From the NCBI GenBank assembly GCA_002878375.1, contig NIRF01000007.1:30576-94575 (forward strand): 64,000 bases of DNA, in the 5' to 3' direction. Within the stretch, counting starts at the first letter, position 1, and each line of letters begins with the position of its first letter. Positions 34,917 to 38,877 of the stretch are shown piece by piece. A program made the position numbers and the translations under genes. The notes under the pieces were generated by a model. It did not search any database. It saw only the letters and a list, made by a program, of their open reading frames with translations, and had not been told where the DNA came from. This stretch comes from Dictyoglomus sp. NZ13-RE01 (GTDB lineage Bacteria; Dictyoglomota; Dictyoglomia; Dictyoglomales; Dictyoglomaceae).

Positions 34917-35888
34917 CTACTCGCTACTTTCTTCTTTAAGCTGATTTCTCCTTTTTCTGTATTCAATTATTGGTAAATCGCCCTGCACTAAGTTTTCTCC
35001 CATTCTTAATGAAGTTATCTTAGGTTCTTGTGTTTCGACTACTCTTCTATCCTGATGGAGCACAATTTTGTTAAAAGGAGATGCGATTTTGGCAATAAAC
35101 TTATCTAAAAACTTAATTTTGGTCAACCTTACATATGTTCTTATATAGACAAGGGAGTTTTCATCATCTACAGGGACAAAAGCGGCAACAATAAAAAAGT
35201 TGTCACTAATATGGTTTTGCCAAATGTTTGGGAAAATAAATTCAAGATAGACCTTGCTTTTTCTTCCTTTCATTTCCTCTGGAGATTTTGGGGGAGTTCC
35301 ATCGTCTACCCTATTAAAAACATAAAATCTCATTTTATCTGAATCAAACCATTCAACAACAGGACCATCTGCAACAGTTCTATTGCCCCTTCCTATAGTG
35401 TTATGATGTACAAAAGGTAAATGAATAGGATCTAACTGATTCTCAATGCATCTTGAATAGTGCGTTTTCCAATGATCAACAAATTCATCATAAACAAAAC
35501 TATCGTCTATAAAATCAAAAAAGGGTGGTTCTTTAATTGCTTTTTCAGGATCCCCATAAAAAACATATATAAAACCATTTCTTTCAACAGCTTTAAAACT
35601 CTTTACCTTGAAATTATTTGGTACAGGAGTATTTCTTCCATTTGCAGGAATTACTTTTACTCTTCCTGTTCCATCATATTCAAAACCATGAAATGGACAC
35701 TGAAGATGACCATCTACAATTTTTCCATAGGATAGCTTTGCTCCCCTATGAACACACTTGTCAACCAAACAATTGATTTTATCCTTATCTCTCCACAAAA
35801 CAATCTTTTCTCCAAAACGGGTTAGCCCTATTGGCTTATCTCTAAGCTCTCTTGAAGACAACACTACATACCACTGATTCTTGATCAT
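34917..35888 (-). CDS. Rieske non-heme iron oxygenase-like protein
   Basis: A 323-residue protein with an N-terminal Rieske [2Fe-2S] domain (CVHRG, Cys45/His47; CPFHGF, Cys64/His67) and a C-terminal non-heme iron domain. The iron ligands are visible in ENQLDPIHLPFVHH (Asp153, His156, His161), with a further acidic candidate in HQDRR. It belongs with the pheophorbide a oxygenase/vanillate demethylase type of ring-hydroxylating oxygenase, which uses O2 and an external reductase. No reductase or ferredoxin gene adjoins it. An oxygenase in an otherwise anaerobic gene set is unusual; it may have been acquired or act in microaerobic conditions. Confidence 0.85.
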   Translation of the reverse strand: MIKNQWYVVLSSRELRDKPIGLTRFGEKIVLWRDKDKINCLVDKCVHRGAKLSYGKIVDGHLQCPFHGFEYDGTGRVKVIPANGRNTPVPNNFKVKSFKAVERNGFIYVFYGDPEKAIKEPPFFDFIDDSFVYDEFVDHWKTHYSRCIENQLDPIHLPFVHHNTIGRGNRTVADGPVVEWFDSDKMRFYVFNRVDDGTPPKSPEEMKGRKSKVYLEFIFPNIWQNHISDNFFIVAAFVPVDDENSLVYIRTYVRLTKIKFLDKFIAKIASPFNKIVLHQDRRVVETQEPKITSLRMGENLVQGDLPIIEYRKRRNQLKEESSE

Positions 35889-36011: not shown

Positions 36012-36040
36012 TTGAAAATTACTTTAAAAAGTGTTATAAA
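36012..36040 (+). promoter_or_regulatory. Strong promoter of the structured RNA
   Basis: TTGAAA (36012-36017) and TATAAA (36035-36040) are spaced by exactly 17 bases, predicting a transcription start near 36047. This coincides with the beginning of the GC-rich structured region and is about 220 bases upstream of alaS. Confidence 0.75.
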
Positions 36041-36046
36041 TAAGGT

Positions 36047-36231
36047 TAGAAGTGCCCTGCTGTGTGCGTGGTGCGAACGTGTCCTTGGCTCAACACCTTT
36101 TCTAATTTGAGCCAGATCCCATCTTGGGATTGCAGCTCAAAAGGAGCTACATAACCAAGGTGGGGAGGCTCAAAAAGTATTAGGAAGAGGGCGCAAAGGA
36201 CTGTAGTGCCACGGCACAGCGGGGATTTTTT
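36047..36231 (+). ncRNA. ssrS: Structured RNA, candidate 6S RNA
   Basis: A GC-rich island of about 185 bases in AT-rich DNA, with its own promoter and ending in GGGGATTTTTT. The ends pair in a long closing stem: 36055-36064 with 36215-36224 and 36067-36071 with 36209-36213. The apical part can form a rod: CCTTGG/CCAAGG (36083-36088, 36155-36160), TTTGAGC/GCTCAAA (36106-36112, 36135-36141) and ATCCCA/TGGGAT (36116-36121, 36125-36130), leaving a large asymmetric internal bubble. Size, closing stem, bubble and rod shape are those of 6S RNA, which binds sigma-70 RNA polymerase. T-box, SRP, RNase P and tmRNA signatures are absent. That it is an RNA gene is well supported; the 6S identity is an inference. 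Confidence 0.6.
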
Positions 36232-36255
36232 AATAATAAAATCTTTAGCAAATGG

Positions 36256-38877
36256 GTGAGAGTAAAGGATATGCAAAGCAAAGAAATAAGAGAAAAATTC
36301 ATTAATTATTTTGTAAGAAATGGGCATTTACATCTACCAAGTGCTTCCTTAGTTCCTGCAGACGACCCTACACTCCTTTTCACTACTGCAGGAATGGTCC
36401 CTTTTAAACCTTATTTTCTTGGTCAAGGGACTCCACCTGCAAGAAGAATTACTACTGTTCAGAAATGCTTTAGAACTACAGACATAGAGAGGGTAGGTTT
36501 AACTCCAAGGCACTTAACTTTCCTTGAGATGCTTGGGAATTTCTCTCTTGGAGATTATTTCAAAAAGGAAGCTATTGCTTTTGCTTTTGAGTTTTTGACA
36601 AAGGAGCTTGGACTTCCTAAGGATCTTCTTTGGATCTCTGTTTATGAAGAGGATGATGAGGCTTTTGAAATATGGAACAAAACTATGGGTATTCCTAAGG
36701 AAAGAATTGTTAGGTTAGGGAAAGAAGATAACTTCTGGGGACCTCCAGGTCCAACAGGACCTTGCGGTCCATGTTCTGAGATCTATTATGATTTTGGTCC
36801 TAAAAATAAAGAGGAGGAGAATTGTAAGCCAGGAGATCCATGTGACCGATTTATGGAAATTTGGAATCTTGTTTTTATGACATATTACATGGATGAAGAA
36901 GGAAAAATGTCTCCTCTTCCTCAAAAAAACATCGATACAGGAATGGGCTTAGAAAGAATTACAACAGTAGTTGAAAAGGTAGGTAATGTTTTTGAAACTG
37001 ATTTATTTGTCCCTATTATTGAAAAAACAAGAGAAATATTAAATGAGTTAGATCCAGCTACTGAAAGGATAATTGCGGATCATATTAGAGGGATTACCTT
37101 TTTAATGTGTGATGGAGTAGTACCTACTAATGAGGGAAGAGGATATGTTTTAAGAAGATTGATAAGAAGGGCAGAAAGAAGAGGCTTTGAAAAAGGAGTT
37201 GAGGAGCCCTTCTTGTATAAGCTGGTCCCTGTTGTAGTGGACGTTATGGGAGATTTTTATAAGGAACTTCACACAAAGAAAGATTATGTGATGCAGGTTC
37301 TGAAAAGAGAGGAAGAACAATTTTTAAAAACTTTGGAGCAGGGACTATATCTATTAGATTCTTTAGCTAAAAAGGGGATAAAAAAGCTTGATGGGGATTT
37401 TGTGTTTAAATTATATGATACTTACGGTTTTCCTCTTGAATTGACCATAGAGATAGCAAACGAGAGAGGCTGGGAAGTAGATGTTGATGGCTTCAACAAG
37501 GCTATGGAAGAGCAAAGAAAGAGAGCAAGAATATCAATGGAGGAAAAATTAGAGAGTGAATGGATTAAATTAAGCGATGAAGAGTTACGTACTCTAAAAG
37601 AAATGCCCTCCACCATATTTGTGGGATATGATACCTTAGAGACGGAAGCTAACATCTTATTCTTTTTAGATGGGAAACATGGAAAGGAAATAGTTGAAGG
37701 AGAAGACATCTCTTTTATTTTGGATAAAACACCCTTCTATGCAGAGAGTGGTGGACAAGTATCTGATAAAGGGAAGGTATATAACGATGAGTTTGAGATA
37801 ATTGTAGAGGATGTTCAAAAACTTGGTGAAAAATTTGTTCATAAAGGGAAGGTTGTCAGGGGTAGAGTAAAAGAGCAGGTTAAAGTAAAGGCGGAGGTTG
37901 ATAAAGAACTTAGATTTGCAACTCAGAGGCATCATACCGCTACACATTTATTACATTCCGCCTTGAGAAGAGTTTTAGGAGAGCATGTATCCCAAGCTGG
38001 TTCCTTAGTATCTCCAGATTTTCTTAGATTTGATTTTACCCATTACAAACCACTTACCGATGAAGAATTAAGGGAAGTGGAAAGATTAGTAAATGAAAGT
38101 ATTTTGGAGAATCACTTGGTAGAGAAGTTTGTTACAACAATTGATAAGGCAAGGGATATGGGTGCCATTGCCCTATTTACTGAGAAATACCAAAGGGATG
38201 TGAGGGTTATAAAGATAGATTCAGTTAGTATGGAGCTTTGTGGCGGTACCCATGTAAATAGAACGGGAGATATAGGATTGTTTTTGATTACAAAGGAAGA
38301 AGGAATAGGAAGTGGAATAAGGAGAATTTTTGCAGTATGTGGTATGAAAGCATGGGAGTATGTAAATAATTTAAGTAGGGATATAGCTGAAATTATGAAG
38401 ATTACTAATGCAAATGATATAAAAGATTTATCACAAAAATGGTTGAAACTACAGAGCCAAATAAAAGAGAAGGAGAATATTATAAATGAATTGGAGAGCA
38501 AATTATTAGAGAAAGAGCTGGAGAATATACTGAAGAATGCTATCAATGAAAATGGCATAAACATATTTATAAGTAAGGTGGAAACAAAATCCCAAGAGGG
38601 ATTAAGAAAGCTTGGAGACCTTATAAAAAGCAGAAAGCCGGACAGTTTAATTCTATTAGGTTTGGAACAGGAAGATAAAATATTGATGACCATTATGGTA
38701 TCTCCATCCCTAACCAAAAAGGGTATCTTAGCTAAGGACATTGCCTCTTATATCAATGCAAAATTAGAAGGAAAAGGTGGAGGGAAAGATACTCTGGCAC
38801 AGGTAACATTGAAGATAAATAGCTGGGAAATTATTGAAAATACAGTAAGGGAATGGGTAAGGAAAATTAATGGGTAG
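36256..38877 (+). CDS. alaS: Alanine-tRNA ligase
   Basis: A full-length 873-residue class II AlaRS. The catalytic core starts at EIREKF and has HLPSASLVPADDPTLLFTTAGM and GPTGPCGPCSEIYYD. The editing domain has the zinc ligands HHTATHLLH and CGGTHVNRTGDIG. The C-terminal C-Ala region is a coiled coil followed by a DHHA1 domain ending GGKDTLAQ. The start may be the GTG at 36256 or the ATG at 36271; the second follows GGGTGA at a better distance, while the first gives an N-terminus like that of Thermotoga. It overlaps ruvX by eight bases. No T-box precedes it. Confidence 0.97.
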   Translation: MRVKDMQSKEIREKFINYFVRNGHLHLPSASLVPADDPTLLFTTAGMVPFKPYFLGQGTPPARRITTVQKCFRTTDIERVGLTPRHLTFLEMLGNFSLGDYFKKEAIAFAFEFLTKELGLPKDLLWISVYEEDDEAFEIWNKTMGIPKERIVRLGKEDNFWGPPGPTGPCGPCSEIYYDFGPKNKEEENCKPGDPCDRFMEIWNLVFMTYYMDEEGKMSPLPQKNIDTGMGLERITTVVEKVGNVFETDLFVPIIEKTREILNELDPATERIIADHIRGITFLMCDGVVPTNEGRGYVLRRLIRRAERRGFEKGVEEPFLYKLVPVVVDVMGDFYKELHTKKDYVMQVLKREEEQFLKTLEQGLYLLDSLAKKGIKKLDGDFVFKLYDTYGFPLELTIEIANERGWEVDVDGFNKAMEEQRKRARISMEEKLESEWIKLSDEELRTLKEMPSTIFVGYDTLETEANILFFLDGKHGKEIVEGEDISFILDKTPFYAESGGQVSDKGKVYNDEFEIIVEDVQKLGEKFVHKGKVVRGRVKEQVKVKAEVDKELRFATQRHHTATHLLHSALRRVLGEHVSQAGSLVSPDFLRFDFTHYKPLTDEELREVERLVNESILENHLVEKFVTTIDKARDMGAIALFTEKYQRDVRVIKIDSVSMELCGGTHVNRTGDIGLFLITKEEGIGSGIRRIFAVCGMKAWEYVNNLSRDIAEIMKITNANDIKDLSQKWLKLQSQIKEKENIINELESKLLEKELENILKNAINENGINIFISKVETKSQEGLRKLGDLIKSRKPDSLILLGLEQEDKILMTIMVSPSLTKKGILAKDIASYINAKLEGKGGGKDTLAQVTLKINSWEIIENTVREWVRKING

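Follow-up and report, generated by a model that had tools for sequence, protein, structure and literature searches.

Evidence for a 6S RNA gene directly upstream of alaS in the Dictyoglomota

We characterized the locus upstream of the alanyl-tRNA synthetase gene (alaS) in a 64,000-nucleotide stretch of Dictyoglomus sp. NZ13-RE01 DNA, referred to here as the window. From the promoter to the coding sequence, the following features are found, with conservation given for seven genomes of the phylum:

36012-36017, plus strand: -35 element TTGAAA, invariant
36032-36040, plus strand: extended -10 element TGT-TATAAA (TGn at 36032-36034, TATAAA hexamer at 36035-36040), a 17-nt spacer away from the -35 element; T, G and TATA invariant
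36047-36231, plus strand: 6S RNA gene of ca. 180-185 nt, assigned from a match to RF00013, the fold z-score and orthologs in 7/7 phylum genomes; 5' end predicted 7 nt past the -10 element, 3' end within the T-run
36226-36231, plus strand: T-run (T6), TTTT invariant
36256-38877, plus strand: alaS, starting with GTG 36256 or the in-frame ATG 36271 (Pfam tRNA-synt_2c, E 6.8e-196)

The original prediction had assigned the segment a promoter of its own (TTGAAA-17-TATAAA), which can be read directly from the DNA and is conserved across the seven genomes, and had placed its end at the T-run, which is likewise found there and conserved. Identity across the seven genomes amounts to 100% for the -35 element and 93% for the -10 element, dropping to 64% in the spacer and 42% in the 30 bases further upstream. 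The promoter scanner listed sites with the -10 sequence TATATT in relatives and left the window promoter unlisted because it requires T as the last -10 base.

6S RNA is a small RNA that mimics an open promoter and keeps RNA polymerase in check. In a permissive Rfam scan of 421 bases, the 6S family (RF00013) matched positions 36051-36229 over the full length of its model (1-187) with 32.8 bits and an E value of 4.4e-5, while all other Rfam matches in the same scan had E >= 0.45. This score lies below the RF00013 gathering score of 46.4, and no Rfam family matched anywhere in the window at gathering thresholds. A whole-genome RF00013 search missed 2 of the 7 copies in the phylum, among them the window copy, probably as a result of the search's first-look filter. 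An exact 28-mer search of the genome contigs yielded no match. DNA searches found the segment in 7/7 phylum genomes; 34 genomes at greater distance gave no match. All seven orthologs match RF00013 end to end with 32.1-48.0 bits, one of them (G003, 48.0 bits) above the curated cut-off.

For the reciprocal comparison, the seven Dictyoglomota sequences alone served to build a covariance model (R1). R1 matches one locus per phylum genome with 176-204 bits, and an R1 search of these seven genomes found no second 6S locus. Antisense matches of R1 were considered as a second gene and rejected, being a mirror of the palindromic rod at the same place. When run against 30 6S loci of other lineages that had been chosen independently by RF00013, R1 recovered 18 of these genes (E < 0.01; best 3e-12). 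The ends are common to Dictyoglomota and other 6S RNAs (CCCUGC..GUGU-CGUG / CACGGCA..GCGGGG). At nt 35-45, most other 6S RNAs carry UGAGCCAACA whereas Dictyoglomota carry UGGCUCAACA, with the motif UGAGCC-AACA in the former and UGGCUC-AACA in the latter.

The elements of the fold, together with the predicted product RNA (pRNA), are located as follows:

36055-36074, plus strand: 5' strand of the closing stem (11 bp, bulged G36066, 8 bp); every cell paired, three pairs doubly changed
36081-36091, plus strand: helix between closing stem and central bubble, 5' strand GUCCUU-GGCUC; consensus fold, compensatory changes
36081-36094, minus strand: predicted pRNA 5'-GUUGAGCCAAGGAC-3', starting opposite C36094; position as in other 6S RNAs, template invariant
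36092-36106, plus strand: central bubble, 5' strand, holding the invariant AACACCU; unpaired in the consensus except CC/GG
36107-36113, plus strand: apical stem, 5' strand of the proximal helix, pairing with 36167-36173; compensatory changes at three positions
36118-36127, plus strand: apical stem, 5' strand of the distal helix, pairing with 36155-36164; compensatory changes at five positions
36134-36138, plus strand: terminal hairpin AGCUC, pairing with GAGCU at 36144-36148; single-sequence and consensus folds
36174-36188, plus strand: central bubble, 3' strand; consensus fold
36189-36202, plus strand: helix between closing stem and central bubble, 3' strand GGGCGCAAAGGAC; consensus fold, compensatory changes
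36206-36224, plus strand: closing stem, 3' strand; same pairing evidence as its 5' strand

As had been predicted, the segment is strongly paired: its fold has an energy of -95.2 kcal/mol, while 200 dinucleotide shuffles average -55.8 (sd 4.15), corresponding to a z-score of -9.49, and none of the shuffles folded as well. Both the fold and the homology clearly exceed chance. The consensus of the seven genomes consists of the closing stem, a small internal loop, the central helix, a bubble of ca. 15 + 15 nt and an apical rod of three helices. A one-nucleotide bulge at the matching place of the closing stem is also present in RF00013, and the bubble motif of the AACACCU region is common to 6S RNAs of other lineages. 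The closing stem and apical rod of the original prediction are thereby borne out, while its large asymmetric bubble proved to be only moderate in size, with ca. 15 nt per strand. That description is also partial because the minimum-energy fold of the window copy closes most of the bubble by pairing; in the seven-genome consensus the bubble is open.

Using a MAFFT alignment of the seven genomes, 97.8% of cells were paired and the covariation score was 0.162, a value reached by 1 of 500 shuffles; with slid partners, the score dropped to 0.04-0.09. MAFFT misaligned the proximal apical helix when the two genera were compared, and for this reason the helices of each genome were additionally curated manually. 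The curated helices contain 14 doubly changed positions, of which five belong to the distal apical helix. Compensatory changes are thus present in the stems by both measures. In the closing stem, 14 of 19 pairs never vary and covariation is confined to three pairs, so that this stem is backed more by homology than by covariation. Together, the sequences form a rod of ca. 180-200 nt with a closing stem, a central bubble and an apical stem, supported by covariation.

Based on the RF00013 match, the covariation of the stems and the conserved end at the T-run, the 6S assignment made in the original prediction is supported, and we conclude that segment 36047-36231 is very probably the only 6S RNA gene (ssrS) in this Dictyoglomota genome. 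The molecule itself is of a known kind, and standard annotation missed it here. A 6S RNA of Dictyoglomota is probably already recorded in databases because one genome of the phylum passes the Rfam cut-off. In the literature searched, no paper treated 6S RNA in Dictyoglomus, and the motif listed in the single paper there that contains both 6S RNA and Dictyoglomi is another one, Dictyoglomi-1.

The start of the pRNA template, CAAC, is invariant in the seven genomes, as is GGCUCAACACC, at the place occupied by GAGCCAACA in other 6S RNAs. By analogy, the C of the invariant GGCUCAAC at 36094 would serve as the template nucleotide for the predicted pRNA start. The predicted pRNA of the window copy, 5'-GUUGAGCCAAGGAC, is also predicted for the two other genomes of the same genus, with 5'-GUUGAGCCAGGAC(C/A) predicted in the second genus. 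In B. subtilis, the 6S-1 pRNA is 5'-GUUCGGUCAAAACUA with GTP as the first nucleotide (PMC12005410), and a start with G has been proposed for Aquificaceae pRNAs (PMC4227106). When the 14 template bases were blocked in silico, the bubble strands of all seven RNAs were predicted to refold into a collapse helix. Over nine columns of this helix, 90.5% of cells are paired and the covariation score is 0.328. A single shuffle out of 500 attained this score, and each slid register scored lower, while doubly changed pairs are not more numerous than in shuffles. The predicted helix would parallel the central-bulge collapse helices proposed for the 6S RNAs of B. subtilis (PMC12005410) and A. aeolicus (PMC4227106).

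Following the behavior of characterised 6S RNAs, polymerase binding, pRNA synthesis and release may be expected of the Dictyoglomota RNA as well. Its own housekeeping-type promoter would give rise to a rod-shaped transcript of ca. 180 nt ending at the T-run. The rod would mimic an open promoter and be bound by RNA polymerase holoenzyme, the closing stem taking the place of downstream DNA. With nucleotides plentiful, the enzyme would start opposite C36094 and copy a short pRNA, 5'-GUUGAGCCAAGGAC..., which would unwind the central helix and allow the collapse helix to form between the bubble strands, thus freeing the enzyme.

The only unusual part of this 6S RNA is its fixed place directly before alaS. 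In 7/7 genomes alaS lies directly downstream, its start separated from the T-run by ca. 25-45 bases, a gap conserved neither in length nor in sequence. Upstream of the 6S gene, six relatives carry acpS and a gene for a TPR protein in the same orientation; in this genome their place is taken by a Rieske gene in divergent orientation, and the TPR gene is located on another contig. The linkage was kept despite the changed upstream neighbor, indicating that the 6S-alaS pair stayed together. The Rieske gene itself (34917-35888, minus strand), located beside the 6S promoter, encodes a Rieske [2Fe-2S] / vanillate O-demethylase-like oxygenase. It is absent from the other six phylum genomes, is odd for an anaerobe lineage and was perhaps gained by transfer.

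The original prediction had pointed to the aspS-alaS neighborhood of the 6S gene in Bacillus. As a general rule this synteny was not supported in tests that addressed bacteria other than Bacillus: AlaS was found within 1.5 kb of none of the best 30 6S loci outside the Dictyoglomota, and the alaS flanks of 17 other bacteria (3 kb where the contig allows) contained no 6S above the cut-off. The 6S assignment does not need the Bacillus synteny.

The two genes lie so close together that alaS may depend on read-through starting at the 6S promoter. In the four genomes scanned, the interval separating them showed no consensus promoter, which makes read-through a reasonable inference. The RNA may then have a second role as a leader that regulates alaS in cis: the single promoter would yield either terminated 6S RNA or read-through alaS mRNA, coupling alaS to the expression or termination of 6S. 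This would be consistent with the adjacency in all seven genomes, with its persistence across the upstream break and with the promoter scan. Yet non-consensus promoters for alaS are possible, the gap shows no conservation, no T-box or other known leader was matched, and the 6S features (pRNA template, bubble, reciprocal match) would have no function in a leader. On balance, we consider this additional function unlikely. Still less probable is the stricter version, in which the Dictyoglomota 6S RNA is an obligate 5' leader of alaS as well, with one promoter and a leaky terminator setting the ratio of 6S RNA to alaS mRNA. If true, translation capacity would be tied to the 6S cycle.

An RNA that is solely an alaS attenuator or riboswitch-like leader, resembling 6S by chance, would account for a place directly before an aminoacyl-tRNA synthetase gene and for a strong fold followed by a T-run. 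This reading is refuted in the main by the full-length RF00013 matches of all seven sequences and by the recovery of 6S RNAs of unrelated bacteria with R1; it would also leave seven genomes showing no 6S locus. T-box in particular had no Rfam match, either in the window at gathering thresholds or in the permissive local scan, and its specifier/antiterminator architecture was not seen. We therefore regard an attenuator-only function as highly improbable. A protein-coding or chance structure is even less credible: the antisense ORF at 36046-36327 (minus strand, 93 aa) was rejected because the orthologs vary in length by 2 and 4 nt, so that no reading frame could be kept, conservation tracks the RNA pairs, and no conserved reading frame was seen in relatives.

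The 6S assignment thus provides a small, early-branching thermophilic phylum with a well-supported 6S RNA, including seven aligned members and a predicted pRNA. Within the phylum, model R1 outperforms the general RF00013 model (176-204 vs 32-48 bits), and the locus exemplifies an annotation blind spot where a real 6S gene falls under thresholds. The fixed 6S-alaS adjacency further makes it possible to test whether a regulator of polymerase and a translation gene are joined in one transcription unit.

Compared with known systems, resemblance to T-box and other aminoacyl-tRNA synthetase leaders is limited to the place before such a gene. The Dictyoglomota RNA shares with 6S RNA/SsrS (RF00013) its size, the closing stem with a single-nucleotide bulge, the central bubble, the apical rod, the pRNA template motif, the conserved ends, its own promoter and the T-run. 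It differs in that this genus scores below the Rfam cut-off, in the template-side helix, which is GGCUC here and GAGCC in other 6S RNAs, and in the smaller loop between closing stem and central helix. As in B. subtilis 6S-1, the pRNA is predicted to start with G (GUUGAGCC here vs GUUCGGUC in B. subtilis) and a central-bulge collapse helix is predicted upon pRNA pairing; unlike that system, Dictyoglomota carry one gene only, located before alaS and otherwise diverged in sequence. The 6S RNA of Aquifex aeolicus likewise belongs to an early-branching thermophile and is GC-rich, with a proposed G start of its pRNA and a proposed collapse helix (PMC4227106). It lies near pheT (table in PMC4227106) and is experimentally verified, whereas the Dictyoglomota 6S RNA is known from sequence.
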